Below are positions 1,348-34,195 of a DNA stretch of 64,000 nucleotides, piece by piece. Under the pieces are notes generated by a model. That model was not told the DNA's origin and made no database searches. It saw nothing but the letters and a program-made list of their open reading frames with translations. The stretch comes from an uncultured Spartobacteria bacterium (GTDB lineage: Bacteria > Verrucomicrobiota > Verrucomicrobiia > Chthoniobacterales > Chthoniobacteraceae): NCBI GenBank assembly GCA_903933715.1, contig CAIZLD010000031.1:1-64000 (forward strand). The letters run 5' to 3'. The first letter of the stretch is position 1, and every line of letters begins with the position of its first letter. Position numbers and translations under genes: made by a program.

Positions 1348-1422
1348 GCGGGTGTAGCTCAATGGTAGAGCACTTCCTTGCCAAGGAAGATGTCGCGAGT
1401 TCGAGTCTCGTCACCCGCTCCA
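1348..1422 (+). tRNA. tRNA-Gly (anticodon GCC)
   Basis: A full cloverleaf can be folded: acceptor GCGGGTG pairs with CACCCGC (1412-1418), the D arm contains GCTC...GAGC, the anticodon stem CTTCC/GGAAG encloses loop TTGCCAA (anticodon GCC), and the T arm GCGAG/CTCGT holds TTCGAGT. CCA (1420-1422) is encoded. It is the insertion target of the adjoining integrative elements: bases 1375-1422 recur exactly at 14874 and 34148, so integration restores an intact gene. Confidence 0.97.
1375..1422 (+). repeat. attL core: 48-bp direct repeat, copy 1 (inside tRNA-Gly)
   Basis: The 3' 48 bases of tRNA-Gly, from the anticodon stem through CCA, are repeated without mismatch at 14874-14921 and 34148-34195. 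Use of a tRNA 3' half as attachment site is typical of tyrosine-recombinase elements. Only this copy has the 5' half needed for a functional tRNA. Confidence 0.95.
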
Positions 1423-1428
1423 AATAAA

Positions 1429-1452
1429 TAGCTCATTTCGAGCTACTTACCG
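1429..1452 (+). repeat. Left-end hairpin of element 1
   Basis: TAGCTC (1429-1434), loop ATTTC, GAGCTA (1440-1445), followed by CTTACCG and an A-rich run. An equivalent hairpin with compensatory changes follows the second att copy at 14924. The sequence after the third att copy has none. It is likely an element-borne end sequence rather than tRNA flank. Confidence 0.55.
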
Positions 1453-1462
1453 AAGAAAAACA

Positions 1463-1488
1463 AGCCTCCTCAGGAGGCTCTTTTTTTT
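1463..1488 (+). terminator. Intrinsic terminator downstream of tRNA-Gly
   Basis: Stem AGCCTCC/GGAGGCT with 3-base loop TCA (1463-1479), followed by a run of eight T. It lies inside the left end of the integrated element, so the element supplies the terminator for the tRNA transcript. Confidence 0.85.
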
Positions 1489-1504
1489 GCCGTTTTTGGC
1501 CTTC

Positions 1505-1527
1505 CGGTAGATACGCCGGTAGATACG
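1505..1527. repeat. Tandem 11-mer, left copy (putative integrase arm site)
   Basis: Two direct copies of CGGTAGATACG separated by one C. The identical 23-bp arrangement occurs at 14792-14814, just inside the other end of the element and next to the integrase start. Paired direct repeats near both ends are what arm-type binding sites of a tyrosine integrase look like. Confidence 0.6.
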
Positions 1528-1667
1528 CCTGACCTCTGAATGACGCCCCGTCTTTAGGTTCCGGCTTCCAAAAAACTTCAGTGCCCTTCTGATGCCACTA
1601 AAACAACTTCGTCTGATTCGGTTGCGGATCATGACAGCCTGTGTCATTCATGGTCGATCCCTCATCC

Positions 1668-2114
1668 ATGAAAATCGCCCTTAATCTTCTCTGGTTCATC
1701 TTTGGCGGCGGCATCTTTGCTGCCGCTCTGTGGATCATCGCTGGCGGGCTGCTCGCCGTGACGGTGGTCGGCCTGCCCTTTGCTGTGGCAGCCTTCCGCA
1801 TCGCCGGGTTCGCTGCCTTCCCTTTTGGTCGCCGGTTGGTGGGCGCCGAGCTTCTGGGAGAACAGACGTTACCGGGGACTGGCTTGGTCAACTTGCTTTG
1901 GGTTGTCCTGGCTGGGATCTGGCTTGCCATCGCCCACGTCGTTGCGGGAATAGCCTGTCTGGGCTCCATCGTTGGTATTCCCTTTGGCTTGGCTCACTTC
2001 AAGCTTGCTGGGATCTGCTTCGCGCCGCTGGGTAAGCGGACGGTCCCCTCCGAGATCGCAGACGCCCTTGAGCGGGCGCAGGCTGATTGGATCGTGGGCG
2101 GGAATAGCCGGTAG
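1668..2114 (+). CDS. yccF: YccF-domain inner membrane protein
   Basis: Small membrane protein of the YccF (DUF307) family, whose biochemical role is not established. Two repeats of the family pattern are visible: LLWFIFGG...VVGLPFAVAAFRIAGFAAFPFG in the first half and LLWVVLAGIWLAI...IVGIPFGLAHFKLAGICFAPLG in the second. Each half holds a pair of hydrophobic segments. Length is 148 aa, normal for the family. ATG 1668 is preferred because the family alignment begins at MKIALNLLWF; the frame is open to 1641. It is the first gene inside element 1 and has no obvious operon partner. Confidence 0.85.
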   Translation: MKIALNLLWFIFGGGIFAAALWIIAGGLLAVTVVGLPFAVAAFRIAGFAAFPFGRRLVGAELLGEQTLPGTGLVNLLWVVLAGIWLAIAHVVAGIACLGSIVGIPFGLAHFKLAGICFAPLGKRTVPSEIADALERAQADWIVGGNSR

Positions 2115-2160
2115 GTGCCACTTTATGATGTCCCCGAAGGAGGAACAGGCGACCGAGAAA

Positions 2161-2667
2161 TCATATTACTTCGCGGGGAATATCGTCCTCGGGGTTGCTG
2201 TGCCGCCGCCGGTTAGGGCTCGGGCGATGTCCCTGCAATCTACGGGGAGGCCCTCCAATGTAGTTAGAAGGCGGGCGGTATCCATAGCCGCAACAGCACG
2301 GTTTAGGGCCCGGCCGGAGCAGGACCATCCATGTTAAGGTGAAGAAAAAGCCCCAGTATCCAATCCATGTGGAGCCACTGATAATCCACCCGGTGGGCCG
2401 GACGAACCCGGTGCAATAGAAAGCCGGTGCGGCAATAGTCGCTGGAATCAGCAGATTGATCCCGATGATGATGACCCAGCGCAGAACCTGGGATTCCCAA
2501 CAGTCATCGTAGCGCAGGTCGAAGAAGTCTTTGGCTGTCTTGTTGAAGCGCACAAGAAAGACGCCCCAGACGAGGGCCATGATGCTGATGTGCCAGCCGA
2601 GGTAGCTTTGAATGGCAGTCAGGGTATTCAAATCGAGTTCGGGGCAAATGGCTAAATCCAACGGCAA
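2161..2667 (-). CDS. Hypothetical membrane protein
   Basis: Not recognised. Three strongly hydrophobic stretches are visible (near residues 24-43, 62-90 and 98-118), then a Cys-, Pro- and Arg-rich tail that begins with a CCCGYGY cluster. The first codon of the open frame is TTG with a weak GGAAAG upstream; an ATG at 2580 is the alternative start but would remove the first hydrophobic segment's lead-in. It overlaps the end of the upstream minus-strand gene by 16 bp, so the two are probably cotranscribed and translationally coupled. Confidence 0.5.
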   Translation of the reverse strand: MPLDLAICPELDLNTLTAIQSYLGWHISIMALVWGVFLVRFNKTAKDFFDLRYDDCWESQVLRWVIIIGINLLIPATIAAPAFYCTGFVRPTGWIISGSTWIGYWGFFFTLTWMVLLRPGPKPCCCGYGYRPPSNYIGGPPRRLQGHRPSPNRRRHSNPEDDIPREVI

Positions 2668-2936
2668 CGGAACTTTCCATTCTTGTAGCTGTAAACTGCC
2701 TCTGCGAGAAGACCGTTGGCATTATTGAGGATGACCTTGCCCTGCCGCTGGTCAACGATAGTCGTCCCCGTGGCCGGTTGCATTACGGAGAGAGGATCTA
2801 CTCCTTCCCTCTCCATGTGCATGAGGTAAGAACGGATGGCGTGTTCCCCAAGTTCGCGTTCTTGGCCGCGAGTCAATTTGGATGATCCTCTATTGTTAAC
2901 AGTTTTGGTTTTAGTGGTTGTATTGGTTTGAATCAT
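2652..2936 (-). CDS. Hypothetical 94-aa basic protein
   Basis: Not recognised. A Thr/Lys/Asn-rich N-terminus is followed by a probably helical segment (LTRGQERELGEHAIRSYLMHM) and a short beta-rich C-terminus ending FRCRWI. No signal peptide or membrane segment is seen. ATG start. It overlaps the downstream minus-strand membrane protein gene by 16 bp. The 3' end of the frame is A/T-richer than surrounding sequence. The interval 2937-3112 between it and the hairpin at 3113 contains no supported gene. Confidence 0.5.
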   Translation of the reverse strand: MIQTNTTTKTKTVNNRGSSKLTRGQERELGEHAIRSYLMHMEREGVDPLSVMQPATGTTIVDQRQGKVILNNANGLLAEAVYSYKNGKFRCRWI

Positions 2937-3112
2937 AAAATGGAGTTTATTGGTTTTGAGTCATCGTTCTTCCTCTTCTTTCGGAGCCTCGTTGTCTTTC
3001 TCACGGCAAAACCCGGCCATAATCTTATGGAGGGTATAATTATCCATCGGCGTGAGCCGCCGTCTCCTCCCGTAGTCCCGTGATGCGGCCCATCGCCCGT
3101 CACCTTCAACCA

Positions 3113-3145
3113 AAAGCCCAGCCTTTACCGGCTGGGCTTTTTTCT
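3113..3145. terminator. Strong hairpin with T-run upstream of the recombination pair
   Basis: GCCCAGCC (3116-3123) pairs with GGCTGGGC (3130-3137), flanked by AAA and TTTTTT, giving an intrinsic-terminator structure usable on both strands. No plus-strand gene precedes it, so on the plus strand it would end only a short leader RNA in front of the gene at 3182. It may be an attenuator rather than a gene-end terminator. Confidence 0.7.
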
Positions 3146-3181
3146 TTTCACCCAAACCAACAAAAGAAAGGAGCCACTCCC

Positions 3182-3712
3182 ATGGCCGTCATACTCAACC
3201 TAACCTATTCGAAAAAACTCGGGCTGCCCAACTTCAGCAGCCACCAATGCAGTGTCAGCATACAGTCGGAGATTCCCGACCTCACCCAAGTCACCGGAGA
3301 GGTGAAACGCCTCTACCTCCTCACCCAGGACGCGGTGGATCGCGAGATTCAAGAAGTCGGGTTTCTGCCAGATGGAACTACCTATGGCATGAACCCGCCC
3401 GCCAACGGGAACAACGGGGCCAGCCGGAACCGCGAGAGCAATAGCAACGGGGCCGACACCGGCACCTGGGCCTGCTCTCCCAAGCAGCGAGAACTGGTGG
3501 AGAAGATCGTCCGCGAGAACGATCTGGATAAGCACGACATCGAGTCCCTCGCACAGGATCGGTTCGGTGTCGGGGTTCGGCAGTTGAACCGTCTCCAAGC
3601 CAGTGGGCTCATTGACGAACTGCTGGAGCGACACGGCGGCCAGCGGCGCAATGGGAATGGCAATGGCCAACGGGGCCGGTTCCAGCGTGAGGGGAGAGGA
3701 GCGTCCCGATGA
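3182..3712 (+). CDS. Putative ssDNA-binding/annealing recombination protein
   Basis: 176-aa protein not assigned to a named family with certainty. The N-terminal half (MAVILNLTYSKKLGLPNFSS, then VTGEVKRLYLLTQ) resembles small proteins found beside phage and island recombinases. A Gly/Asn-rich linker follows. The C-terminal segment (SPKQRELVEKIVREN...LAQDRFGV...ASGLIDELL, near residues 100-155) matches the short helical domain found at the end of several ssDNA annealing and recombination proteins. The tail is Arg/Gly/Asn-rich. Start chosen at ATG 3182 behind GAAAGGAG. Its stop overlaps the next gene's ATG (ATGA), so it is coupled to the Fe-S nuclease, which supports a joint recombination role. 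Confidence 0.5.
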   Translation: MAVILNLTYSKKLGLPNFSSHQCSVSIQSEIPDLTQVTGEVKRLYLLTQDAVDREIQEVGFLPDGTTYGMNPPANGNNGASRNRESNSNGADTGTWACSPKQRELVEKIVRENDLDKHDIESLAQDRFGVGVRQLNRLQASGLIDELLERHGGQRRNGNGNGQRGRFQREGRGASR

Positions 3713-4545
3713 TCGCGTTCGCCGATCCACCCCCTGCGGCTGCTTTCGAGCCGAGCCAACCGAAGGGGCGCAGCATTGAGGAACTGACCACCACGGTCTC
3801 GGCCTCCCGGTTGGGCACATGGCTCCAGTGTCGGTTGAAGTTCTACCTCCGCTATGTCGCCGGAGTCGCCAAGCCGCCCACGGTAGCCCTCCACTTCGGC
3901 AAGACGGTTCATGCCGTCCTCCAGCAGTGGAGTCTCGCCCGGTGGCGTAATGCACCACTGGACGACGACGCCATCACAGCCGTGTTCGAGCAGGCATGGG
4001 GGGCGCCGGAGGGGACGGTCCCCATCGCATGGGAGACTGAGGAGGAGGAGGCCAGTAAGGTCAACGCCTTGGCGGTCATCCAGACCTACCTGCGCGAGAC
4101 CCCCATTCCCGTGGATGAAAAACCCGAGGGCGTGGAGGTCTCTGTCGAGATGGACCTTGCCTCCCACGGGTTGCCAGTGCTGGTCGGGGTGCTGGATCTC
4201 GTGCGGGCCGGGGGGCGAATCGTCGATTACAAGACGACGGGACGCACCCCCGATCCCAAGATGGTCCGGCATACCACCGAGGTCCAGACTACCGGATACG
4301 CCCTGCTCTACCGTGAGGCAACCGGCCAGCGGGAAACCGGCATTGAACTGCACCACCTGGTAAAGCTCAAGACGCCCAAGCTCGTGGTGACCGAAGCCGG
4401 TCCGGCAACGGATCAGCAGGTCAACCGACTCTTCCACCTGATCGACGCCTACGTCGATGACCTGGAGCGCCGGGACCCGATCCCTTCACCGGGGATGCAG
4501 TGTTCAATGTGCGAATTCCTCACCGAATGCCGAGCATGGCAGTGA
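3709..4545 (+). CDS. PD-(D/E)XK nuclease, Cas4/AddB-like with Fe-S cysteines
   Basis: RecB-family exonuclease of 278 aa, expected to resect DNA ends. Visible nuclease residues are His68 (GKTVHAVL), Asp163 (GVLDLV) and Asp173-Tyr-Lys175 (VDYKTTG). Cysteines 41, 265, 268 and 274 are spaced C-Xn-C-x2-C-x5-C, the layout of the 4Fe-4S cluster in AddB and Cas4 nucleases. No helicase motifs are present. It follows the putative annealing protein with a 4-bp overlap, a nuclease-plus-annealase arrangement known from phage recombination modules. No cas1 or cas2 gene and no repeat array is nearby, so a CRISPR role is not supported. Confidence 0.82.
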   Translation: MIAFADPPPAAAFEPSQPKGRSIEELTTTVSASRLGTWLQCRLKFYLRYVAGVAKPPTVALHFGKTVHAVLQQWSLARWRNAPLDDDAITAVFEQAWGAPEGTVPIAWETEEEEASKVNALAVIQTYLRETPIPVDEKPEGVEVSVEMDLASHGLPVLVGVLDLVRAGGRIVDYKTTGRTPDPKMVRHTTEVQTTGYALLYREATGQRETGIELHHLVKLKTPKLVVTEAGPATDQQVNRLFHLIDAYVDDLERRDPIPSPGMQCSMCEFLTECRAWQ

Positions 4546-4557
4546 CCGATATTGGCA

Positions 4558-4589
4558 AAGAGACAGCCTCTGAAATGGGGCTGTCTCTT
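4558..4589. terminator. Bidirectional terminator hairpin
   Basis: AAGAGACAGCC (4558-4568) pairs perfectly over 11 bp with GGCTGTCTCTT (4579-4589). It sits between the ends of the convergent nuclease gene (plus) and XRE regulator gene (minus), where a shared terminator is expected. No long T-run follows. Confidence 0.7.
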
Positions 4590-4598
4590 CCTGATGAA

Positions 4599-4865
4599 TT
4601 AACGGCGGAAAGCCGAGGCGACGATCTTCTTGATCTCAGATTGAGGTGGCAGGAGCTTCTCTGGAGGGACATTCAAGGCTTGTGCAAGGCAAAGCAATTC
4701 GAGGTCAGTGACGCACCGGATCTGGGTTTCAATCTTCGTGATCACATTTTCGGCGACATCCCAGCCAAGCATCCCGCACCGGGCGGCCAGCATAGCCTGG
4801 GTCAGCCCCAACTCATGGCGAAGGGACTGAATGCGGGGACCAAGGATGTTCTGCTTTTGCGGCAT
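4599..4865 (-). CDS. XRE-type helix-turn-helix regulator
   Basis: 88-aa protein that is almost entirely one HTH domain: RIQSLRHELGLTQAMLAARCGM (first two helices) then VAENVITKIETQIRCVTDLELLCLAQALNVPPEKLL. This matches small Cro/C1-type repressors. ATG start. It is transcribed toward the nuclease gene. It is the only small DNA-binding regulator on element 1 and so a candidate to act at the operator-like palindrome in front of the abi gene (9264-9279), but that link is only a guess. The 280 bp upstream of it, to 5145, hold no supported gene and probably its promoter. Confidence 0.85.
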   Translation of the reverse strand: MPQKQNILGPRIQSLRHELGLTQAMLAARCGMLGWDVAENVITKIETQIRCVTDLELLCLAQALNVPPEKLLPPQSEIKKIVASAFRR

Positions 4866-5145
4866 CTTCCGAATTTGGAAGTTGACCGTAGCGATCTTTT
4901 TGACAGCATAGCTTCCGTTTTTGGAAGGTTTCTTGGGTTCTTTCAGACTCCCCTCAATATCCCCAGGCAGAAATCTTGGAAAAAATGGCCGCTTGAAATG
5001 AGATTTTTCCGTACCCCGCGAAAGCTATGGAAGACGACTGTTTTGGCCGTTGTCGAAGTCGACAAGGTGCAGAAATGGCCTGAGCACGACCGATCAAGAA
5101 GAAGATTGCCGAGAGAATTACCCAACTCAACTCCAAACCCGCTCA

Positions 5146-5331
5146 ATGAAAAATCTGATCATTACTAAGCGCGGCATCTTCCTCGCCGCCCTCACCCTGA
5201 TTGCCTCCGTCGCCATTGCTGCGGAAGTCTACACCTACCAGTGCCCGCGTTGCGGTTGCATTCTGACTTTCGCTTTCCCCACACCGGGAGCGAAATGCCC
5301 CAGTGATGGGGCGTTGATGGTCCGGCGCTGA
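5146..5331 (+). CDS. Small exported zinc-ribbon-like protein
   Basis: 61-aa protein. The first 27 residues (MKNLIITKRGIFLAALTLIA followed by SVAIAA) form a clear signal peptide. The mature part has CPRCGC and a later Cys (AKCPSDG), a rubredoxin/zinc-ribbon-like arrangement. ATG 5146 is chosen because it places the signal peptide at the N-terminus; the frame is open from 5050. It lies upstream of the Sel1 protein in the same direction. Function is unknown. Confidence 0.55.
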   Translation: MKNLIITKRGIFLAALTLIASVAIAAEVYTYQCPRCGCILTFAFPTPGAKCPSDGALMVRR

Positions 5332-5385
5332 GACCGCAGGCCATCTGATTCGGGAGACATTTCAACAACTAGAAAGGACTAACTT

Positions 5386-6096
5386 ATGAACAAATATATA
5401 TTGGTAATAGGGTCGGTTTTTCTATTCTGCAATTTGTTTATTCAAGCAGAAGACGCACCCCAGTCCTCGATTGTAGATTTGGCACAAGCTGCAGAATCTG
5501 GAAATAAAGCTGCGGTGCAATCACTGTACCAAAAAGCGGTGTATGGAAATGCTGCAGCTCAGAACATAATTGGTTATTACATAGACACCGGAACATGCGG
5601 ATTCGACCGAAACCCTCAAATGGCCGCAGAATGGTATAGGCGTTCTGCTGAACAAGGAATAGCTACAGCGCAGTGGAATCTGGCTCTCTGTTATGAATAT
5701 GGGAAAGGAGTCGATAAAGATTTAGTAAAGGCTCGTTTGTGGTATTCTCAGGCAGAGCTTCGGGGCTACATAAAGGCGAGAGAGAGGCTTGAACAGTTAG
5801 GAATGCAGTCCACCTCAGGAAAGTCAGAGATTACCCCAAGCCAACTTATCACAAAAACAATCCAAGATACGGCGGCATCTACCAAACAGGCAGCATCAGA
5901 CTTCTGGGATAAAAATGGTGTGGAAATTAAACAAAGTGCCGAGAAGATTGGACAGAACATGTCGGATTTCTATAAACGGAATCAAACGCAAATCGAAACT
6001 ACCACCATATCTATTCTTGGTGCCTATCTGGGCCATGAACTTACGAAAGACACCCCTTCACATGAACCTCTGCCAGCAACCGCTCAGGATAAGTGA
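5386..6096 (+). CDS. Exported Sel1-repeat protein
   Basis: 236 aa with an N-terminal signal peptide (LVIGSVFLFCNLFIQAED). Two to three Sel1-like repeats follow, for example YGNAAAQNIIGYYID, NPQMAAEWYRRSAEQGIATAQWNLALCYEYG and DLVKARLWYSQAELRGY; this alpha-alpha solenoid usually binds proteins. The C-terminal third is a charged, probably helical region with WDKNGVEIKQSAEKIGQNM. A good AAAGGA ribosome site precedes ATG 5386. The gene is clearly more A/T-rich than the flanking element genes, a sign of separate acquisition. Probably periplasmic; the partner is unknown. Confidence 0.78.
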   Translation: MNKYILVIGSVFLFCNLFIQAEDAPQSSIVDLAQAAESGNKAAVQSLYQKAVYGNAAAQNIIGYYIDTGTCGFDRNPQMAAEWYRRSAEQGIATAQWNLALCYEYGKGVDKDLVKARLWYSQAELRGYIKARERLEQLGMQSTSGKSEITPSQLITKTIQDTAASTKQAASDFWDKNGVEIKQSAEKIGQNMSDFYKRNQTQIETTTISILGAYLGHELTKDTPSHEPLPATAQDK

Positions 6097-6121
6097 GGCG
6101 CAGAAAAAATAGACTAATATT

Positions 6122-6478
6122 ATGAAGAAAACAATTCTTTGGATTATATGTATTATTGTCGGACTTATTGTGATTTATAATATTAATGCAGCTTCAGAAC
6201 CCCCTGTCTCCATTCTGTTCCGCAGCTCTATGGTTGGGCTGGGTAAGGTAATGGTCATTACCAACACTTCTGATAAACCTCTGTATGAAGTGGCTGTTAA
6301 AGCGAATAATCACAAATTGCACGAAGAAGTAAATCGCGTCGTCGCTGTTACACTGGAACCTAGTAGATCGATTGATGTTGGGTGGATGGAAATCAACTGG
6401 ATGTTTCAGCCGGGCGAAAACTTCAGGATTAGCGCTCGCGGATATCCCGGCAGTTTCATCGGAACTGTCCCTAAATAA
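6122..6478 (+). CDS. Hypothetical anchored or exported protein
   Basis: 118-aa protein of unknown function. The N-terminus (ILWIICIIVGLIVIYNI, residues 4-20) is one hydrophobic segment, either a signal anchor or an uncleaved signal peptide. The remainder is beta-rich (ILFRSSMVGLGKVMVITNTS, then FRISARGYPGSF) and could form a small immunoglobulin-like domain. It follows the Sel1 gene by 25 bp in the same direction, shares its A/T-rich composition and is ended by the terminator at 6506, so the two appear to be one cargo cassette. Confidence 0.6.
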   Translation: MKKTILWIICIIVGLIVIYNINAASEPPVSILFRSSMVGLGKVMVITNTSDKPLYEVAVKANNHKLHEEVNRVVAVTLEPSRSIDVGWMEINWMFQPGENFRISARGYPGSFIGTVPK

Positions 6479-6505
6479 AAAGGTAGGAATTAACGTCCAC
6501 CTTTC

Positions 6506-6539
6506 AAAAAGCCGACCATCATTATGGTCGGCCTTTTTT
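6506..6539 (+). terminator. Intrinsic terminator
   Basis: GCCGACC (6511-6517), loop ATCATTAT, GGTCGGC (6526-6532), then C and a T-run, with matching A bases on the 5' side. It closes the Sel1 cassette. The sequence after it (ACCAACAAGAAAGGAGG before ATG 6579) resembles the leader between the 3113 hairpin and ATG 3182. Confidence 0.85.
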
Positions 6540-6578
6540 ATTTCCAACCATAACAACCAACAAGAAAGGAGGAACACG

Positions 6579-6923
6579 ATGACATCCATCACAAAACTCG
6601 TCATCATGTTGGGGTGTCTGCCGCTGCTGGCGGGATGCCCCGAAGGCTCTGGGAACGGGCAGCCATCGCCACCCCCGTCCCCTACACCATCGGCGGAGGC
6701 CCGGCGCTCGGCAATCCTGGAGCAAGAGCTTCGGGATGAGCGGGAGAAACTCGGGAGGTTGACCAAGGCCCTCGCGGAGAGCCAACGTCAGAAAACCCAA
6801 CGGGAGGAATCCCGGCACCGATGGCAGGTGGCGTCGTTCGCGCTTGCGGGCGGTTGCCTGCTTGCCATCTTCGCTGGGGCGGCACTGGGAACGAGGGCTC
6901 GCCATGAGACAGGAGCGAAGTAA
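6579..6923 (+). CDS. Putative lipoprotein with coiled coil and C-terminal membrane segment
   Basis: 114 aa. The lipobox LLAGC, with Cys near residue 18, follows a short hydrophobic signal. A Pro/Ser-rich linker, a charged coiled-coil segment (ILEQELRDEREKLGRLTKAL) and a hydrophobic stretch (VASFALAGGCLLAIFAGAAL) follow. A signal at one end and a membrane helix at the other recall phage spanin-like or conjugation-associated entry/lysis proteins, but this is only a similarity of layout. A strong AAAGGAGG site fixes ATG 6579. The 3' end overlaps the run-on tail of hsdS on the other strand by 136 bp. Confidence 0.6.
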   Translation: MTSITKLVIMLGCLPLLAGCPEGSGNGQPSPPPSPTPSAEARRSAILEQELRDEREKLGRLTKALAESQRQKTQREESRHRWQVASFALAGGCLLAIFAGAALGTRARHETGAK

Positions 6924-8305
6924 TCGTCCCGGCGAGTTGCCGGAGCCGGGCGGCAGACGAACGAGAACCGCTCTCGTTTTCTGGTGTCCCCGCGAGATAG
7001 CACGCCCCAGGGTCGAACCCGATCTGTCCCGATTGGGGCTGGTCGAGAGATCCGCCGAGGTGATTCGATATTCGCTCTGCCGATCAGCGCGGTCCGGCGT
7101 TCTTGCAGGAGGTCGATGGCCCGCAGGGCTTCGGCGGTGAGGGTCTCCAACTTGGCGATTTCTAGGTCGAGATGGGCAGCAATCGCAGCTTGCTCGGCCA
7201 AGGGTGGAACCGCGAGTGGGATGCGGCGCAGGGCGTCCAACGTGATTTCCAAAAAGGTTGTCCCCTTTGCGACAGCTCCGATGCTCGTTTGGCAATAGCT
7301 ACTGTTGAAGGACCACAAAAGGAACCGTGGGATTAGATTTTCTCCGGGGCAGATTCGAGCAGTGCCCTGCGTGAGGTTAGCGCCATCAAGAAACTCGGGC
7401 ACAAGTAATCCTTTTCCAAGGCTTGCGCGAATAGCAACCACCAAGTCATTCGGTCTCACCTTTGACCGTGCATACGACGCATCGATTTCCGGTGTCGTTC
7501 GCATATAGCCGGTTTCTGGCAATAACTCGCCCGCCATATCCGAAGTGCGAATATATGGAATCCCATCTTCGATATCGGGACCGGCTTGGACAATACCATA
7601 GGTAATGGTTGTTCCCGACTTAACCAATCGTCGAAGGTGGGTTACCTCCCAATGAGATGGCATATCGCCGAGCCATTCGATGCCGGAAGGCTTCATGGGG
7701 GCGCGGGGGTTCAGGCCTTTGGTGACGGCGTGGGAGATGATGGCCTGGCGTTTCTCTTTCAGCAGTTCAATCAGCCGCCTCTGCTCCTCCATCAGCCCAT
7801 CAATCTTTGCCGTCTCCCGGTCAAGAAACGCGGCGATGAAGGTTTGTTCGGAATGAGAGGGGAAGACCCATTTGCGAGCAAGCGTTTCGCTAACTTTAAC
7901 AAATGGTTGCGCGCTCCCGCCTTTTTCCCACCAGTCCTCTTGATTGGTCAAATACCACAAAAAATTACGGTTTGATTCTTGAATGGGGAATAGGCAGTGG
8001 GTGTTCGCAACCACACCCCAAGCCGCGTCAGCTTTGAAAGTCTTCCCGCAACGCGCCCCGACCGCGCTGAGCACGATTCCGGGAACATTGAAGTCATAGC
8101 TTTCAAGCCAGATATCTTGGCCGGATGCACTGAAGCCAGGATACAAGCCCTCTGAGGGTTCATCGGAACACTGACCTTTGATTGCCGTGCCGCCCGAAGC
8201 GGATCGAATCCTTCGTTTCGCGGGCACTACATCCCAATGCTCCGGCACCTCCCCCAGCCATTCCACGCCGCTCTCTTTGTATTTTGGGTAGCGCGGGAAG
8301 CTCAT
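6788..8305 (-). CDS. hsdS: Type I restriction-modification specificity subunit HsdS
   Basis: DNA-recognition subunit that directs a type I methyltransferase to a bipartite site. Two half-repeats are evident, each opening with the family signature: ESGVEWLGEVPEHWDV near residue 11 and PSGIEWLGDMPSHWEV near residue 206. Each recognition domain is followed by a conserved coiled-coil repeat (FLDRETAKIDGLMEEQRRLI; HLDLEIAKLETL). The core would normally end soon after LQERRTALI (about residue 407), yet the frame runs on for nearly 100 residues of unrelated, Arg/Pro-rich sequence into a convergent gene, suggesting a frameshift or lost stop. Its ATG overlaps the abi stop by 4 bp. Confidence 0.9.
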   Translation of the reverse strand: MSFPRYPKYKESGVEWLGEVPEHWDVVPAKRRIRSASGGTAIKGQCSDEPSEGLYPGFSASGQDIWLESYDFNVPGIVLSAVGARCGKTFKADAAWGVVANTHCLFPIQESNRNFLWYLTNQEDWWEKGGSAQPFVKVSETLARKWVFPSHSEQTFIAAFLDRETAKIDGLMEEQRRLIELLKEKRQAIISHAVTKGLNPRAPMKPSGIEWLGDMPSHWEVTHLRRLVKSGTTITYGIVQAGPDIEDGIPYIRTSDMAGELLPETGYMRTTPEIDASYARSKVRPNDLVVAIRASLGKGLLVPEFLDGANLTQGTARICPGENLIPRFLLWSFNSSYCQTSIGAVAKGTTFLEITLDALRRIPLAVPPLAEQAAIAAHLDLEIAKLETLTAEALRAIDLLQERRTALIGRANIESPRRISRPAPIGTDRVRPWGVLSRGDTRKRERFSFVCRPAPATRRDDYFAPVSWRALVPSAAPAKMASRQPPASANDATCHRCRDSSRWVF

Positions 8306-14780: not shown

Positions 14781-14791
14781 GCCGTCATTGT

Positions 14792-14921: not shown

Positions 14922-14923
14922 TT

Positions 14924-20973: not shown

Positions 20974-20985
20974 GCTGTCTGGCAA

Positions 20986-22089: not shown

Positions 22090-22113
22090 TTTTCTCCTAT
22101 CAGTTTTTTATTT

Positions 22114-23700: not shown

Positions 23701-23742
23701 TGGGTTCGTTATGGACATTTTCGAGTCTGTTGACAAGAACAA

Positions 23743-24037
23743 AGTGAATTTTCTCCGATGATCTTTTCAGTCCGGATTCCACGGCAATTGTTGCGCCGAT
23801 GATCTCTTTGACCCAGAACCGCTCAATGCCGATGTGAAATAATTATGGCGCAGCCATAACTGCCCGACATTTTCGCTACAAAGAGCCATTCTTGGCAAAA
23901 CGGATTGGCCTATAGTGGGGGCTGAACCAAGAGCGAACATTCAACGCCGACAAAGTGGCGACCCCGGCAAACGCGGGGCATATCGCTTTAATATCTACGC
24001 CCTAACAACGGTTAGGGCGCAGCATTTCTCGCCTCCA
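23743..24037. other. Intergenic region between aminotransferase and GH2-GNAT genes
   Basis: Holds the promoter region of the minus-strand catabolic operon, though no convincing -35/-10 pair stands out. A hairpin GCCCTAAC...GTTAGGGC (24000-24019) lies just past the end of the GH2-GNAT gene and may act as its weak terminator, without a T-run. A shorter CCCCGG...CGGGG element occurs near 23970. Confidence 0.45.
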
Positions 24038-26383: not shown

Positions 26384-26401
26384 ATAATTTGAAGTTGAAT
26401 A

Positions 26402-26480
26402 ATAAATTTCCGCGATAATAATCTCTTGTTTTCAAATCCGCCAATAACGTTTATCCCATTTCTTTTATAAATTTCCGAGA
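26402..26480. promoter_or_regulatory. Direct repeats in the GH2-GNAT / AraC divergent promoter
   Basis: ATAAATTTCCGCGA (26402-26415) and ATAAATTTCCGAGA (26467-26480) are direct repeats with one mismatch, 65 bp apart (six helical turns), in a strongly A/T-rich intergenic region between divergent genes. AraC-family proteins commonly bind such spaced direct repeats. Inference from layout only. Confidence 0.45.
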
Positions 26481-26485
26481 TTTCC

Positions 26486-27289
26486 TTGAGTGCTTTTTCC
26501 ATTACAAATGTGGGGGTTTATCGCGCTTCTGAGCGTTGGGTGCAACGGTTCCATGAACCGTGTATTTGCTTTAACGTGAGCGGTATCATTTACCAACGGC
26601 TAACTTTTTCCGACGGGTGGAGAATGGAAGCTCCGACGAAACCCAACTTTGTCTTTTTTGTCCCCGGCACAACGCTCGATTTCGCTTTTGATTCACACCG
26701 CGAAAACTGGGTGATCATATTAAACACCACAAATATTCGCTACAATCCCGATAAACGCTGCGTGGAATGGAAGGAAGACAACGACTGGATACCGCTACCG
26801 CTATCGTTGTCGGTTTCTTCCGAATGGGTGCCCTATTGGCAGTCTGAACTTCGCGCGATGCATGCTTCCATGGTGAGCCCCGTGCCGCGCAATCGCTGGC
26901 GGGCTCGACTCGGTTTGCTAAACATTCTCCGGTTTGTACTGGATGGACACCATGAATCTCTCAAAGAAAAACCCGCAGAGGAGTTGAAGCGCGTGCTTGA
27001 TGAGGATGAAAACTGTTCACGCACGCTCCAGGAATGGTCTGCAGTTTGCGGTTATTCGAGCGATCATCTTCGAGTATTGTTTGAACAGGAATACGGAATG
27101 ACACCGATAGAATACCGCAACCAGCGACGAATGGCACGGGCCATGCAATTGGTGGCAAGCAGTCGACTGACGGTGAAAGAAATCGCCAGTCAACTCGGAT
27201 TCCGTTACCTGTCCCACTTTTCAGCCGCGTTTATGAAAGCATTCCATTGTCCTCCGAGCACGGGCATCAAGCGTTTCCGGCATCTTTAA
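26486..27289 (+). CDS. AraC-family transcriptional regulator
   Basis: 267 aa with an N-terminal cupin-like effector domain (LTFSDGWRMEAPTKPNFVFFVPG) and a C-terminal AraC double HTH: WSAVCGYSSDHLRVLFEQEYGMTPIEYRNQRRMARAMQLVASSRLTVKEIASQLGFRYLSHFSAAFMKAF. The first codon of the frame is TTG 26486, with no strong ribosome site; the true start may lie slightly inside. Divergent to the GH2-GNAT gene, which it probably activates in response to a sugar. Confidence 0.88.
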   Translation: MSAFSITNVGVYRASERWVQRFHEPCICFNVSGIIYQRLTFSDGWRMEAPTKPNFVFFVPGTTLDFAFDSHRENWVIILNTTNIRYNPDKRCVEWKEDNDWIPLPLSLSVSSEWVPYWQSELRAMHASMVSPVPRNRWRARLGLLNILRFVLDGHHESLKEKPAEELKRVLDEDENCSRTLQEWSAVCGYSSDHLRVLFEQEYGMTPIEYRNQRRMARAMQLVASSRLTVKEIASQLGFRYLSHFSAAFMKAFHCPPSTGIKRFRHL

Positions 27290-27664
27290 ACGAGTTGTTT
27301 CAGTGACCGGAAAACATGCATCTTCCGGTTCCAAGCAGGTGATGGCAGCCGGGCAAAGAATTCACGGCGGTTTCAGAATCCGGCTTGGTGCGCCATGTCT
27401 GGGCGGGATTCGCCCGAGTTGAGATACTGGACTGGTGGAAGCACAAAGGGGGCATTCTGCTGGACATCTACGCCGACCGGTTTGCTGAACGCTCGGATCA
27501 GACCCGGAAGCTGATCTGGGATGACGTTCCCACTGGCTTGGCTATACGCGGACTGCTTGACCGCGAATTTGGTGAGCTGTTGATCAAGGTTGTGACCCGT
27601 GCCTCCACCCCGGACGAACTCCAGAAAGATGCCGCGGGTTCTGAACTGTAGCTCAAAGGTTTCG
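27290..27664. other. Intergenic region with an unsupported 88-aa frame
   Basis: Between the AraC regulator and the end of the hybrid kinase. A plus-strand frame at 27385-27651 (EILDWWKHKGGILLDIYADR...) is open but has no recognised domain and no clear ribosome site. It could be a small gene or a decayed fragment. No terminator with a T-run is evident for either flanking gene. Confidence 0.35.
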
Positions 27665-30600
27665 TTATGCGCCGTCCGCGTGGATCGCGTCGTGCAGGGA
27701 GGCCAGTAGATTCCTGACATCGTAAGGCTTGTGCAGGATCACATCGACGCCAAGTGCATAAAGTTCGTCTTGACGAAATTCCGAAGCCTGCCCCGTGGAG
27801 GCGAGGATTTTCACTCGCGGGTTGATCTCTTGTAACGCACGGGAAAGAGCCACGCCGTCCATTCCCGGCATCATCACATCGGTGAACACAAGATCGATCT
27901 CTTGGGCATGCTCTTTGTAAAGAGCCAGAGCTTCATTTCCATCGAATGCCGCAAGGACCTTGTATCCATTGTTTTTGAGCACCATCGAAAGTGTCTTGGC
28001 GATGATAGCCTCGTCCTCGACCACAAGGATCGTTGCCTCGCCGCGATCCTGTGGAATCTCTGTTTGGGACAAACGCTCCTGTTCCGCCGCAGTCAGCGTT
28101 TCACGGGGCAGGAATACTTTGAACGTGGTGCCCCGACCGACTCCGGATTCTACAGTGACAAACCCGCCGTGACTGCGGACAATGCCTGCGACTGTGGAAA
28201 GGCCAAGACCGGTGCCTTTGCCGACTTCCTTTGTCGTAAAAAACGGGTCAAAGATTTTTTGGACAATTTCACGCGCGATCCCCATGCCGGTGTCGGATAC
28301 AGCCAGCATGGCATAGCTCCCCGCTTTTGCATCCGGCACCATGGCAGCAAAGTTTTCGTCGATCTCTGCGCTTTTAGCGAAAAGGCATAGGGAGCCGCCT
28401 TCTGGCATGGCATCCCGGGCATTGATGCAGAGGTTGAGGAGCACTTGATGGATCTGCGTCGGATCGCCTGTGACCGGCCAGAGGTCAGATGGGACGGAAC
28501 TTGTGATGGTAATGTTCTTGGGAAAAGTCTGGCGCGCGATGTTTTCCATCTCCTCGACGAGGCGATTCAATTGCAAGGTCGTGCGGTCTCCTTTGGTGCC
28601 GCGCGCAAAGGTTAGCACTTGGTTGACCACACTGGCTCCCCGGTTTGCACATTCCTCGATGGAGTTGATCAAGCTTGCTCGGGTTTCAGCATCCTCGGCA
28701 GCATGGAGCATTTCGGCGGAAAGAATGATGGGAGCGAGGATGTTGTTGAGATCGTGGGCAACGCCAGAAGCCAGAGTGCCGATGGCCTCAATTCGCTGGG
28801 AACGCAGGAGTTTTTCCTCCATCACCTTGCGCTCGGTAATGTCCGTATCGCTACCACGATAGCCGCGCAGGGTTCCATCCATGTTCAGGAGGGGGACGCC
28901 GTTGGTGGAAACCCACACTTGCCGTCCGTCTTTAGTCTGTATGGAGTTGACAAAATTCTTGAACGGTTGCTTTTGTGCAAATATCGTCAAGGCAGACACT
29001 TTGAACGCCTCGCGCCCGGATTCTGGATGCAGGTCATAAAAGTGTTTCAGGCCCATCAGTTCATCCGGGGGATAGCCCAAAACAGCCTCGGATACCTTGC
29101 TGACAAATGTGTAAAGACCCTGATCGTCCACTTCCCAAGCTACGGTGGAACTCTGCTCCGCAAGTTCAGCATAACGAGCTTCGCTCTCCCTCAGCATTTC
29201 TTCTGCCCGTTTGCGTTCAGTGATGTCACGGGCGAAGATCGCCATGCGGCCGAATTTCCCCTGGGTATCCTTGATGGGGTAAAAACTCGTTTCAAAGATA
29301 TGCCCCTGCCGTGTGTCCTCCTTCTTGGATGGTAATCCCGCGGCAAACAGTTCCTCCACGATTTTTTGGCGGGCGTCCGCCACATCAGGAGGGAAAAAGT
29401 CGTAAACGCGCTTTCCGATGAGGTCGGAAAGATCCATCCCCAGGCGATTGGCGGTAGTCTGATTAGCGACGAGAACGCGTCCCTCCAGATCAAGTAGATG
29501 AATCGATTCATCTGCGGCATTCAGCAGAGCCCGGATGGTGGCCTCACTTTCCTGCAATGCATTCTCCTCCTGCTTGCGCTTGGTGATGTCGTAAAGGACC
29601 ACCAGGTGAAGATCTTTTGATTGCTCCCCGAGCGAAACCGCGGAAACCATGGCGATGCGCTGGGTTCCGTCCTTGCACGAGATATTCACCTCCATCGGAT
29701 CGAACGCGGCCCCCGTTCCGTTCGCCTTATTCATCCGCTTGAGCCACTCCTCAGCCACCCACTCGCGATATTCAGCGTCAGGATACGCTTTGGGCCACCA
29801 ATGGGCCAATGTTGGAATATCTGCGACATCGTAGCCGAACGTATTGACAAATGCTTTGTTTAGAAAAGTGATGTTTTGCTCTCCATCATTTAACCCAAAG
29901 GGAACCGGAGAGGCATCAATAATGGCCCGGAATCTGCATTCGCTTGAGCGCAAAGCATCCTCTGCCCGTTTCCGCTTGGAGATGTCTTTTACAAAAACGA
30001 ACATGCTTCCACCATTCATGGGCTGGTATTGAGCACACACTTCGACATCAAAAAGGCTCCCGTCCTTGCGCCTTTGGACGCTTTCAAAACGATCCCACCC
30101 ACGCTCCTTGATTTTCCGGATCCGCCCGGCGATTGCGGCGGGTTGCTCCAGAGCTTCCATGATTGAAATGCACCGACCAATGAGTTCCTGTTCGCCGTAG
30201 CCACTCATCCGGCAATAGCTCTCATTGACCTCCAACAGGCATCCCTGCATATCCACCCGGCAGAATCCATCCATTGCCGTTCGAAGAATGGTTCTGAGCC
30301 GGAACTCGTTTTCCCGCACCTGCTCATTTGCTGAGAGCGCCTCCTCATTCCGGCGCTGGAGCGCATTCATCATTTCCGCCATGTGCGACAGCGAGGGGCG
30401 GAATACGAACAGAAATTCCAGCACCAGAATCAGCAATCCGGCACACAGCCCCCATCGTTCCATCCTCTGCAGCTCGATAATCCGTTCCTTTGCCTCCTTG
30501 TCGAACTGGAAGGTGATCTTGTCCATGAGTTCCAAGAAGCGCGGTTCGTTGCGCAGCAGCACCTCCGCCGTGGCATGAATGGCGTCCGGGGCGGAGCTTC

Positions 30601-31021
30601 CATCCTTCACTTGGGCTATCATCTGCTCCAAGGCATGAACCATGTTGGCGTGGAAGGGTTCCATCTCTGCAAACAATGCCGTAATCGCGGCGGAGTTCTG
30701 CCGCGGCGGCAACCCCAGTATTTCATCGCCATGTTGCAACCCCAGATGGGCAGCCTTCCAGGCGATCAGCGATTCGGAAATCTCATATAGCCGTTTGGGT
30801 CGTTCCCCGTCATCGCATTTGTGATCCGAGGCCAGAACGCACTTGGTCAGCCGCTGGCTCAACATCCGCTGCCGGCCTGAGAGGTTGATAACACGCGCGT
30901 CACCTTCGTTGCGCCGGACGGCATGCTGCATCAAGACGGACGACGAGAGGAGCGTCAGGGCAATCAAAGTCAGGGCGATCCCATAGAAAACCTTCAATTG
31001 CTGAAAGCGATTGATTTTCAT
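27665..31021 (-). CDS. Hybrid PAS sensor histidine kinase with PilJ/NarX-like input domain
   Basis: 1118 aa from ATG 31021 (GTG 31075 is also open). Order: membrane segment ([18 protein letters not shown]), periplasmic helical domain with [21 protein letters not shown], similar to the NarX P-box/PilJ N-terminal module that senses nitrate or nitrite, second membrane segment ([16 protein letters not shown]), four PAS domains, HisKA with His756 ([12 protein letters not shown]), HATPase ([22 protein letters not shown]) and a receiver with Asp1048 (FTDVMMPG). No DNA-binding output is attached. Divergent from the nitric oxide reductase gene, so a nitrogen-oxide signal is plausible. Confidence 0.88.
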
Positions 31022-31197
31022 AAAATTTGGGCTTCCATTAAAGCCCTTGTGTTCGAGCTTTGACAGATAGGGCACTCAAACTGAGGATGCTCTTGACAGG
31101 AGGATAAGGCAATCTCCGAAAAAAGCATCACCACCCCATTTATTGAGACACCATTCGGGTTCCTGATGGCAGGGTAGGATGCGAGTGCGCATTCAGT

Positions 31198-31518
31198 TTA
31201 TGGTGAAATGAATCCAATCACCCGCCGCTGCCTCTCCCACGCTGCCTCATCGCACTCCCGCCGCATCTCCCTTTCGGTAACGGCGTCCCGCTCGCTCGGC
31301 GGCCCCGGAAGAAAGAGCAGCCGCTCCTGAATCTCCGGCGCGAGATTCTCGAGGCCCTGATGTGGGCGAAAGGTATTGGGGGGCTCACTTTCTGTTATCA
31401 TCTCATCCTCAGCAGGTACTTCCGCGATGAACCTCAAAACGTGCGGGGGCGGGTAATTGATCCAGCCGTAGCGTCTACCGAAATCGATTGCTCTCTGGTC
31501 CGGACCAATCGCTTCCAT
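31198..31518 (-). pseudogene. Remnant of a recombinase-associated HTH protein
   Basis: A minus-strand frame of about 106 aa. Its second half, HQGLENLAPEIQERLLFLP followed by ERDAVTEREMRRE, resembles the segment after the HTH in proteins that accompany site-specific recombinases, where LAPEIQE-LLFLP and RDPITERELR recur. The helix-turn-helix that should precede it is missing. Its ATG (31518) overlaps that of norZ on the other strand. The context suggests a decayed mobile-element gene. The remaining parts of 31022-31516 show no other gene. Confidence 0.4.
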
Positions 31519-33832
31519 GAACTCAAAAACACCCCCTCCCTGCCAGCAATCTCCTTCGCGGCGCACCCTGCTCGTATCCCGGCACTGGGTTCAGGCTGCG
31601 ATACTTGTGTTTCTCTTTGGCTTCTTTGTTCTCGGATTCCTCGCCTATCGTACCTACACGAGCCAAGCTCCAATCCCGGGTAAAACCGTCGATCCGCAAG
31701 GTGGGGTTGTGTTCACGCGCGCCGACGTTATTGGTGGCCAACAAGTGTTTTTGCGCAATGGCCTTATGGAATATGGTTCAATCTTCGGCCACGGAGCATA
31801 CCTTGGCCCCGACTATACCGCCGATTGTCTGCGGCGCTGGGCGCTGGCGGTGATGGAATCCAAGGGCGGCGCGGCTTCGGACAAGGCGCGGGCAGAAACA
31901 TTGCGCGAGTTTAAAGCGAATCGCTACGATCTGGCCACGGATACGCTGAATTTTTCCGGCGATCAGGCGAAGGCAGTCAACGATCTGAAGGGCTATTACG
32001 GCAAATGTTTCGGTGAACCAACCTCGCGATTTGGACTCCGACCCAAAGCAATTTCCGATGAGGAAGATATCAAGAAACTTACATCATTCTTGTGCTGGGC
32101 TGCGTGGGTGACTGCAGCACAGCGGCCCGGCCTAGACTATTCATACACAAACAACTGGCCACCGGAACCGTTGGTGGGCAACGCGGCCACTGGTGACGCG
32201 GTGGTTTGGAGCGTCCTTTCGCTTATTGCCCTGCTGGGCGGAACCGGACTCCTGTTTGCAGCCTTCGGACGCTGGGATTTCCTTGGCTGGCACAGCCGAG
32301 AGCGCGAGAGTCTTTCGTTCCGAGCGCCGGATTCTGTGGCGCTGACTCCCAGTCAACGAGCCTGCGCCTGGTTCTTCCTGGTGATGGTAACCTTGTTCCT
32401 TATTCAGACGATGGTTGGCGGTGCCTCCCAACATTACAGGGCGGAACTCTCCAATTTCTTCGGGATCGATCTCGCTCGCTGGTTGCCGTTTAACCTTGCC
32501 CGAACGTGGCATTTGCAACTCGCCATCTTCTGGGTCGCCACGTCGTTTCTCGCGGCGGGGATTTTCCTCGCGCCGATGATCTCCGGGCAGGAGCCCAAAG
32601 GCCAACATTGGCTCGCTTACAGCCTGCTTGCGGCTCTGGCTTTGGTTGTATTTGGTAGCATGGCGGGCGAATTTGCCGGAATCCACGATTTGTTTCGTCA
32701 GAACTGGGCATGGTTCGGTGCCCAAGGATTTGAATACCTCGATCTGGGCCGCTTTTGGCAGATATTGCTAATTGTGGGGCTGTTCTTCTGGGTGGCGATT
32801 CTCTATCGCGGCTTGAGAGGCTACCTTGCAGACGAGAACAAAGGCAACATGCCATGGCTTTTCTTTTTCTCGGCCCTCTCGATTCCTGCCTTCTACGCAG
32901 TCGGCCTCCTCGCGAGGCCCTCGGTGCATTTCACCACCACGGATTTTTGGCGTTTCTGGGTTGTCCATCTTTGGGTGGAGGATTTCCTGGAACTCTTCAC
33001 CACAATTATGGTCGCCTACCTCTTCGTGCTACTTGGCGTAGTCCGCGAACGCGTGGCCCTGACCGTCATCTACCTCGATATCGTGCTCTACTCGGCGGGC
33101 GGCGTTATTGGGACGATGCACCACGTCTATTTCTCTGGCGAACCGGCCGTCCATATGGCCCTCGGCGCGTTCTTCTCTGCGGCAGAGGTCATACCGCTAA
33201 CATTTCTGACCGTTGAGGCATGGCGTTTCTTGCAACTCGGCTCGGTGCAGCAGGCGAAGTCGGGTGCCCCATTTCCTCATTTTTGGGCGGTGATGTTCCT
33301 GGTGGCAGTCGGCTTCTGGAACTTCCTAGGTGCTGGCATCTTCGGCTTTTTAATCAACCTGCCCATCGTCTCTTATTACGAAATCGGAACCGCCCTAACG
33401 GCAAACCACGCACACGCCGCTATGATGGGGGTCTACGGCATGCTATCGGTCGGCTTGGCGCTATTTTGCCTGCGTTATATGATCCCCGAACCGCGCTGGT
33501 CGGATCGAGCGGCTAAAATCAGCTTCTGGTCGCTCAATATCGGTCTTTTCTGGATGGTCTTTGTCACGCTCTTCCCGCTGGGCATTCTCCAGCTCTATAC
33601 CTCCGTCAACGAAGGCTATTTTGAAGCGCGCAGCCTCAAGAATATAACAAGCGGAACCAATGCGCTGCTTGAATGGATGCGGTTGCCGGGCGACGTGATC
33701 TTCATCGTTGGGGGCGTGCTTCCGATCATTTACATTTGCTGGCTTTGCGTGCGTTTCATGAGACCGTATGTCAAAGAGAAGGAACCTCGACCGACCCTCT
33801 TCACAGAGGTCAAAGAAGAAGACGGATTGTAA
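31517..33832 (+). CDS. norZ: Quinol-dependent nitric oxide reductase (qNOR)
   Basis: Single-subunit cytoplasmic-membrane enzyme reducing two NO to N2O with quinol. 771 aa, normal for qNOR. The N-terminal soluble extension (GGVVFTRADVIGGQQVFLRNGLMEYGSIFGHGAYLGPDYTAD) is typical. The catalytic subunit follows with about 12 further membrane helices. Heme/metal ligands are visible in NLARTWHLQLAIFW, GVIGTMHHVYFSG and ALTANHAHAAMMG; the conserved Glu in AAEVIPLTFL is present. No cytochrome c subunit is nearby, as expected for qNOR. Likely used for NO detoxification, as no other denitrification gene is in the window. Confidence 0.95.
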   Translation: MNSKTPPPCQQSPSRRTLLVSRHWVQAAILVFLFGFFVLGFLAYRTYTSQAPIPGKTVDPQGGVVFTRADVIGGQQVFLRNGLMEYGSIFGHGAYLGPDYTADCLRRWALAVMESKGGAASDKARAETLREFKANRYDLATDTLNFSGDQAKAVNDLKGYYGKCFGEPTSRFGLRPKAISDEEDIKKLTSFLCWAAWVTAAQRPGLDYSYTNNWPPEPLVGNAATGDAVVWSVLSLIALLGGTGLLFAAFGRWDFLGWHSRERESLSFRAPDSVALTPSQRACAWFFLVMVTLFLIQTMVGGASQHYRAELSNFFGIDLARWLPFNLARTWHLQLAIFWVATSFLAAGIFLAPMISGQEPKGQHWLAYSLLAALALVVFGSMAGEFAGIHDLFRQNWAWFGAQGFEYLDLGRFWQILLIVGLFFWVAILYRGLRGYLADENKGNMPWLFFFSALSIPAFYAVGLLARPSVHFTTTDFWRFWVVHLWVEDFLELFTTIMVAYLFVLLGVVRERVALTVIYLDIVLYSAGGVIGTMHHVYFSGEPAVHMALGAFFSAAEVIPLTFLTVEAWRFLQLGSVQQAKSGAPFPHFWAVMFLVAVGFWNFLGAGIFGFLINLPIVSYYEIGTALTANHAHAAMMGVYGMLSVGLALFCLRYMIPEPRWSDRAAKISFWSLNIGLFWMVFVTLFPLGILQLYTSVNEGYFEARSLKNITSGTNALLEWMRLPGDVIFIVGGVLPIIYICWLCVRFMRPYVKEKEPRPTLFTEVKEEDGL

Positions 33833-34147
33833 TCATATGGTGGTGCTCCCTCCCTCCTCAATCATGATCATGCCGCTCGCCGGTAATAATGCCGTAGGAG
33901 TCCTCCAAGCCGGGAATCGCACTCGATTTCGCGGCGTCACGGGAGCAGAGGCCGGAGCACAAGCTATCGGCTGGCGCCGTTGATAGATTTGCCGGGTCGA
34001 GCGTCATCATCTTCCTGGCAATTCCTGACAAAAAAAGTTTGTTTGTATTCGTTTCTGTGCGATGTGACATTTTGGGCGATGGCCCGGGAAGCCGCATCAA
34101 CACGAGGATTGGCGCATTTTTGCGAAACATCACGAAATAAAAATTTT
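33833..34147. other. Non-coding right end of element 2
   Basis: 315 bp between norZ and the third att core. No convincing gene is seen; a short minus-strand frame (33858-34133) has no family resemblance. The last 80 bp are A/T-rich. No copy of the 11-mer arm repeat of element 1 is present. Confidence 0.45.
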
Positions 34148-34195
34148 CCTTGCCAAGGAAGATGTCGCGAGTTCGAGTCTCGTCACCCGCTCCAT
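34148..34195 (+). repeat. att core, 48-bp direct repeat, copy 3 (attR of element 2)
   Basis: Third exact copy of bases 1375-1422, again lacking the 5' tRNA half. It ends 32 bp before the rhaT-like start codon. Joining 1422 to 34196 gives the predicted empty chromosomal site. Confidence 0.93.

Follow-up and report, generated by a model that had tools for sequence, protein, structure and literature searches.

The question raised by this locus is why the 3' half of a single tRNA gene should be found three times, in one orientation, within 32.8 kb of DNA. The window, ie the whole stretch of 64,000 nucleotides that was analysed, is bases 1-64000 of contig 31 in a 2.8-Mb draft genome (77 contigs) of an uncultured Spartobacteria bacterium. 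The sole tRNA gene located in it by ARAGORN is an intact tRNA-Gly(GCC), and a 48-bp core of that gene, from the anticodon stem through the CCA, is present in three copies, all on the + strand and free of mismatches (Table 1). A previous sequence-only reading had proposed that two tRNA-targeting insertions lie here in tandem. That proposal is supported by a motif to the right of copy 3, by the likeness of the left ends of the two intervals, and by repeats at the ends of the first of them. The DNA from 1423 to 34194 is very probably foreign, and lies behind tRNA-Gly(GCC) as two tandem units, element 1 (1423-14921, 13.5 kb) and element 2 (14922-34194, 19.3 kb).

Table 1. Features of the tRNA-Gly locus (window coordinates; att = attachment site)
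Feature	Position	Strand	Basis or remark
tRNA-Gly(GCC), intact target gene	1348-1422	+	ARAGORN
Core copy 1 (tRNA nt 28-75, 48 bp), left att of element 1	1375-1422	+	exact match
Hairpin TAGCTC-ATTTC-GAGCTA, left end of element 1	1429-1445	+	by eye; overlaps the 28-column similarity
Tandem arm-type repeat, CCGGTAGATACG twice, period 12, left end of element 1	1504-1529	+	putative role
PD-(D/E)XK nuclease, Cas4/exonuclease-like, cargo	3709-4545	+	
HsdS, type I specificity subunit, cargo	6788-8305	-	
Abi_2/AbiD family protein, cargo	8302-9216	-	
abiF RNA (RF03085)	9222-9257	-	5 bp from the Abi gene start
HsdM, type I methyltransferase, cargo	9479-11221	-	
Rolling-circle Rep-like protein, 396 aa	12078-13268	-	homology to sister-element Rep; HUH-type motif by eye
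Tyrosine integrase, 474 aa as listed	13407-14831	-	Pfam PF00589
Same tandem arm-type repeat, right end of element 1	14792-14814	+	putative role; inside the first codons of the integrase reading frame as listed
Core copy 2, right att of element 1/left att of element 2	14874-14921	+	exact match
Hairpin TGCCTC-AGTTC-GAGGCA, left end of element 2	14924-14940	+	by eye
Catabolic cluster: DeoC-type aldolase, amidohydrolase, AraA-like isomerase, FGGY kinase, DeoR regulator, alanine dehydrogenase, class-III aminotransferase	15431-23742	-	
GH2 glycosidase with C-terminally fused GNAT acetyltransferase domain	24038-26383	-	
Nitric oxide reductase NorB with fused cytochrome-c-like domain	31517-33832	+	
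Core copy 3, right att of element 2	34147-34194	+	exact match
GGGTCTACATCAAAGTTTG, tRNA-trailing motif, marker of the old chromosomal flank	34201-34219	+	

Core copies and the boundary of the tRNA locus

The chance probability of an exact 48-bp repeat is about 1e-24, which is not credible as coincidence. Both strands of the window were searched, and no further exact piece of the core of at least 14 bases was found. Copies 1 and 3 have one additional base in common on their left (34146-34194, query 475-523). The sequence-only reading was right about three exact copies and had set the third one base too high. The empty site that it obtained by joining the outer cores needs the same shift, its left side at 1422 being kept, and the predicted empty junction is 1422 to 34195.

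The 19-nt motif GGGTCTACATCAAAGTTTG has two exact places in its own genome, one to the right of copy 3 and the other 15 nt behind tRNA-Gly(TCC) on contig 45. With up to two mismatches allowed, 17 places (L110-L126) were found in five genomes of the genus. In twelve of the 17 cases an intact tRNA gene of the same strand has its 3' end 15-117 nt ahead of the motif (Gly, Gly, Arg, Gln, Gly, Gly, Val, Asp, Asp, Lys, Asn and Val), one place is the window itself, and one follows what appears by eye to be a tRNA 3' fragment. Forms of the motif are also found 45, 125, 13 and 58 nt behind tRNA-Gly(GCC) in G002, G004, G003 and G001, respectively, ie in all four congeners, a count for which the pattern was loosened after the sequences had been seen and in which two of the four are also among the 17. 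No such motif is present behind copies 1 and 2. Since it stands to the right of copy 3 and is missing after the other two, the tRNA locus most likely once ended, on its 3' side, at 34194/34195, with 1423-34194 as the inserted DNA.

In G001, six places of the motif share the following 120 bases or so, and all six contigs end there, as if the motif opened a longer mobile repeat inserted behind tRNA genes.

Two units and their ends

The left ends of the two elements are alike. The 60 bases following copies 1 and 2 can be aligned over 28 columns with 22 identities (0/1000 shuffles as good), and the similarity was also found when 300 bases were compared (0/200). At both left ends the shared stretch begins, by eye, inside a hairpin of six pairs with a five-base loop. 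The two hairpins differ in two of the six pairs, both sides being changed so that pairing is kept. The bases after copy 3 are unlike those after copy 1 or copy 2 (992 and 887 of 1000 shuffles as good), and no similarity was found in any of the three pairs of sequences left of the cores (948, 644 and 354 of 1000, the two right ends, R1/R2, giving 948).

Element 1 has repeats of its own inside both ends. The period-12 unit GGTAGATACG occurs twice at 1506-1527 and twice at 14793-14814, and as a tandem nowhere else in the window even when one mismatch is allowed (0/100 shuffles reach four matches). At either end, only 2 of 500 control windows from the same genome scored as well. Such repeats inside both ends suggest a unit with two complete att sites, although this is not decisive. 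Element 1 also has the form of a tDNA island: an intact tRNA gene at one end, a displaced fragment in the same orientation at the other, and a tyrosine integrase gene between them (PF00589, 40.4 bits against a cut-off of 27.1). The integrase reading frame is uninterrupted and starts 42 bp from copy 2, pointing away from that copy, although a start codon further inside is possible. The integrase stands at the end far from the intact tRNA gene, and the related genome G009 is arranged alike: a stretch of 23 kb runs from an intact tRNA-Pro gene to an exact 47-bp fragment of its 3' part, which the integrase start faces. A tRNA 3'-like fragment (a sub-threshold Rfam match) is in the same place on contig 24 of G051, with no intact tRNA gene in the stretch examined.

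Element 2 is bounded by intact cores and has neither integration nor transfer genes among the ten reading frames scanned with Pfam, which are metabolic and regulatory only, the sensor-kinase and small frames being outside the scan. A tblastn search of it with 16 integrases gave short stray matches (E 0.17 or worse), and a six-frame search with a family profile one more (26468-26599, E 4.2). The earlier description of the second interval, ie no recognisable integrase, together with catabolic and NO-reductase genes, thus stands. Neither end has a tandem of at least 9 bp at a period of 10-14, a fairer comparison found 391 and 84 of 500 control windows to be as good, and the longest word common to both ends is 7 bases, equalled in 200/200 controls. 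Matches to its isomerase and aminotransferase in 37 other genomes were only 23-37% identical and many were partial. The best explanation of element 2 is a passenger resembling a cis-mobilizable element (CIME), carrying sugar and NO-reductase genes.

Composition gives a mild signal of foreign DNA. Against 58 chunks of the same genome (20 stretches from elsewhere in it plus window positions 40001-64000), the GC content of the fifteen 6-kb windows over both elements falls between the 2nd and 31st percentiles, with 11 of the 15 under the 10th, and their tetranucleotide distance between the 84th and 98th.

The repeat test was also applied to sister elements in the related genomes. A period-13 tandem particular to G051 is present at each of its ends, where 5 and 2 of 500 controls did as well. 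The tandems in G019 score 8 and 9 (36 and 13 of 500), in G008 and G004 just one end has a clear tandem (13 and 5 of 500, respectively, against 84 and 200 at the other end), and those in G009 are weak (84 of 500 at each end), the two being alike by eye. A comparable tandem is seen by eye ahead of the G002 integrase. For the five sisters with both ends available, the shared-word test was clear for G051 and G008 (1/200 each) and weak for G019 (17/200).

Several observations weigh against two foreign units with a boundary at 34194/34195. The shared-word test was failed by G009 (43/200) and G004 (194/200), so that the missing tandems of element 2 are weak evidence. By tetranucleotide distance element 2 stands out only modestly (84th-95th percentile), and the first windows to the right of copy 3, beginning with the 6 kb from 34001, also reach the 84th percentile. 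The gene for NorB is 92% identical in G003 (21 other genomes searched), where it stands in another context with no tRNA gene in the 19.9 kb examined, and a partial relative, 82-84% identical, is found at a contig end in G001; it therefore belongs to a pool shared by the genus. As to the flank, three of the 17 motif places have no tRNA gene in the stretch examined, a place on contig 10 that matches the first 15 bases with one mismatch has none nearby, and G004 has no place at all at up to two mismatches. The motif is a dispersed repeat and so marks DNA downstream of tRNA genes, not a unique ancestral sequence. The comparison with relatives lacking the insert, which the sequence-only reading had suggested, yielded the motif forms behind the congeners' tRNA-Gly(GCC) and no empty site: the left flank with its tRNA was sought in 38 genomes and rhaT, the right neighbour, in 22 (own genome included), and none other has both flanks. 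The gene pfkB, the neighbour on the left, is retained by just one of the four congeners, G002, where the contig stops 170 bp past the tRNA gene; in G001, G003 and G004 rhaT is on a different contig, and no rhaT was detected in G002. The argument for the old boundary consequently rests on the tRNA-trailing motif.

Order of arrival, excision and other explanations

On the mechanism we propose, the integrase of element 1 would recombine two copies of the 48 bp, one being the anticodon-stem and 3' part of the tRNA gene and the other lying on a circular form of the element, and would cut in the anticodon stem-loop that all the cores hold. Integration would rebuild the tRNA at the left end of element 1 and leave the 3' fragment at its right end, beside the integrase start. 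The N-terminal domain of the enzyme may bind the tandem repeats inside both ends. Excision would give a circle joined at 14921/1423, with the tRNA gene then directly adjoining element 2, and the circle may be copied by rolling circle through the Rep-like protein. Element 2 would have entered the same site by a related attachment system, of which the integrase and tandem arms can no longer be detected.

It had been suggested that the whole 32.8 kb, or either part, could excise. Of these, excision of element 1 is best supported, with its repeats at both ends. Element 2 has no detectable repeats, and on this view both it and the whole 32.8 kb, with at most one att so equipped, would be poorer substrates. 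Real ends can escape the repeat test, as the sister elements show, so the preference for element 1 is not decisive. Homologous recombination between the 48-bp repeats could also delete any of the intervals.

The sequence-only reading further held that the second element entered first. Its missing integrase makes element 2 the likelier first comer, and this order is somewhat favoured. The order tRNA, element 1, element 2 would arise equally from either arriving first or from joint arrival, and the three cores, being identical, carry no signal of order. Another history of the same two elements, in which element 1 came first and element 2 entered at copy 2, or both came as a composite, with the integrase lost before or afterwards, therefore has an appreciable, if minority, chance of being correct. 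It accounts for the observed arrangement as well, but the lack of an integrase or its remnants in element 2 is easier to understand if that element has been there longer.

A single island of 32.8 kb, with its inner core produced by homologous recombination or duplication and not by a second integration, would explain why element 2 has no integrase of its own. It is very improbable, since copies 1 and 2 enclose a complete element 1 that has its tandem repeat at both ends, and copy 2 is trailed by a left-end sequence of its own resembling that after copy 1. Mis-assembly, ie the joining of unrelated stretches at the 48-bp repeat, has to be considered for a draft in so many contigs, in which repeats of this length can be misjoined. 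We regard it as very improbable, as the left-end similarity, the tandem repeats and the tRNA-type flank are all where integration predicts them. That the copies are decayed duplicates of the tRNA gene has next to no probability: they are indeed parts of that gene, but all three are exact and run from the anticodon stem to the CCA, copies 2 and 3 are not preceded by a 5' half, and the same plan of cutting is seen at tRNA-Pro in G009.

The integrase and its family

A predicted structure of the integrase was of middling quality (mean pLDDT 77.9, pTM 0.46), with the catalytic part mostly around 90. The order of strands and helices fits arm-binding, core-binding and catalytic parts, and the 50 fold matches listed include lambda Int, Tn1549 Int and Xer chains, although TM scores by query length were low (0.24-0.40). 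Matches to the enzyme were found in 26 of 57 genomes (own included), all from one bacterial order.

The tRNA scan took in 15 of the 29 loci with a related integrase, and nine of the 15 have a tRNA gene. Eight of the nine have an intact tRNA gene whose 5' end is turned towards the integrase start (Ala, Val, Ala, Ala, Arg, Ser, Met and Arg). The ninth (G010, Pro) has its integrase behind the tRNA 3' end, with no second copy in the 20 kb examined. Beyond the integrase, four of the eight (L091/L092, L093, L096 and L097) have a second, exact copy of the tRNA 5' half (nucleotides 1-38, 1-39, 1-40 and 1-40), and the two copies enclose units of about 2.2, 27.6, 4.2 and 6.0 kb; the contigs of the other four end within 2.7 kb past the integrase. 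The four relatives with duplicated 5' halves insert on the 5' side of the tRNA gene, the less common type, to which 159 of the 3919 Islander islands belong (PMC4383910), and a mode stated for archaeal pTN3-like integrases and described as seldom met in bacteria (PMC8371274).

In a tree of 16 integrases, the enzyme from the window is sister to that of G002 (support 99/97), and the enzymes of G009 (Pro, 3' half) and G008 (Ala, 5' half) fall in one supported group of three (99/98). The family thus includes users of both tRNA halves. It is quite possible, if somewhat short of probable, that the tandem at tRNA-Gly is one instance of a family of elements that targets tRNA genes in both ways.

The active site is also altered. 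In 13 of the 16 integrases the place expected for the first catalytic arginine is taken by glycine, as judged from a MAFFT alignment with the three integrases that keep the arginine and from a GLRxxE motif that we take to mark it. In the window integrase the residues are Gly334 at this place, Arg357, Lys359, Arg417, Arg420, His443 and Tyr454. An arginine two before the catalytic lysine (Arg357 and Lys359) is present in 13/13 enzymes without the first arginine and in 0/3 with it, and the same is true of an arginine at the first histidine place. The three keepers form one supported group, which suggests few independent events of change. Absence or shift of the first arginine is on record for the IntCTnDOT and IntDes subgroups, and in the CTnDOT integrase its work is described as being done by another, downstream arginine (PMC8138268). 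The present enzymes are similar in lacking the first arginine, but have glycine in its place and arginine for the first histidine.

Cargo and comparison with known systems

The sequence-only reading described the first interval as an integrase with mobile genes. An integrase and a Rep-like gene are there, but much of the rest looks like defence cargo (Table 1); further proteins carry YccF and Sel1 domains (Pfam). The 12078-13268 protein had no direct match to a Rep family. It is related to a protein of the G019 sister element (tblastn E 3.7e-9), which itself matches REP_ORF2-G2P (28.2 bits against a cut-off of 27.8) and a rolling-circle PHROG, and relatives were found in three of 56 other genomes. 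The G004 sister element likewise has a protein above the REP_ORF2-G2P cut-off (30.0 bits). Beside its Rep and integrase genes is one for a PemK/MazF-like toxin (L096:6526-6972).

No conjugation machinery, as an integrative and conjugative element (ICE) would have, was found among the ten reading frames of the first interval scanned with Pfam, smaller and overlapping frames being outside the scan. Nor was any relaxase model, as for an integrative and mobilizable element (IME), matched.

The tandem at tRNA-Gly is a further case of an arrangement known from IME-CIME accretion and from ssrA islands. Accretion, for which PMC5704250 gives a three-step model, produces tandem units bounded by att sites, one of them without an integrase. 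Here too the units share one site, and the integrase-less one would be a CIME if its att sites are good. Its cores are intact, but neither end has detectable tandem repeats (sister elements can fail that test too), and att function is putative; unlike the elements of the model, transfer genes were not identified. The Dehalococcoides islands at ssrA (PMC3146451) are likewise serial, lie behind one RNA gene, and have direct repeats and metabolic cargo, and 15 of them are described as having no integration module. They use a serine recombinase and ssrA, whereas a tyrosine integrase and tRNA-Gly are found here. Islander (PMC4383910) collects islands with an intact tRNA gene and a displaced fragment, as at this locus, with 3' fragments in 3760 of 3919 islands, anticodon-centred sites in 2083, and tandems of two or more in 125. 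Since its tandems need an integrase in each unit, element 2 would fall outside that count. A narrow literature search found no paper joining Verrucomicrobi(a) with tRNA-sited, integrase-bearing integrative elements or genomic islands.

The locus is of interest in that an element with defence genes and a catabolic passenger are stacked site-specifically at a single tRNA gene in a little-studied bacterial group, and its anatomy suggests which part is likelier to move. Within this analysis the integrase findings, ie the first arginine missing in 13 of 16 enzymes and the use of both tRNA halves, are the more unusual. The family provides a natural case for comparing related enzymes that target 3' or 5' halves of tRNA genes, and for comparing an altered active site in tyrosine recombinases.

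In element 1 an abiF RNA is directly ahead of the Abi_2 gene, and the two are placed between hsdM and hsdS, without hsdR. HSDR_N gave no match within element 1 and one elsewhere in the genome (C39). Element 2 also contains an AraC regulator (Pfam) and a long sensor kinase, read from the sequence. To the right of the elements, the reading frame for RhaT is listed as 34228-35499; its homologues align only from about residue 30, so that the true start is probably near 34315. Next to rhaT, 35550-38900 appears to encode a glycyl-radical enzyme and its activase.

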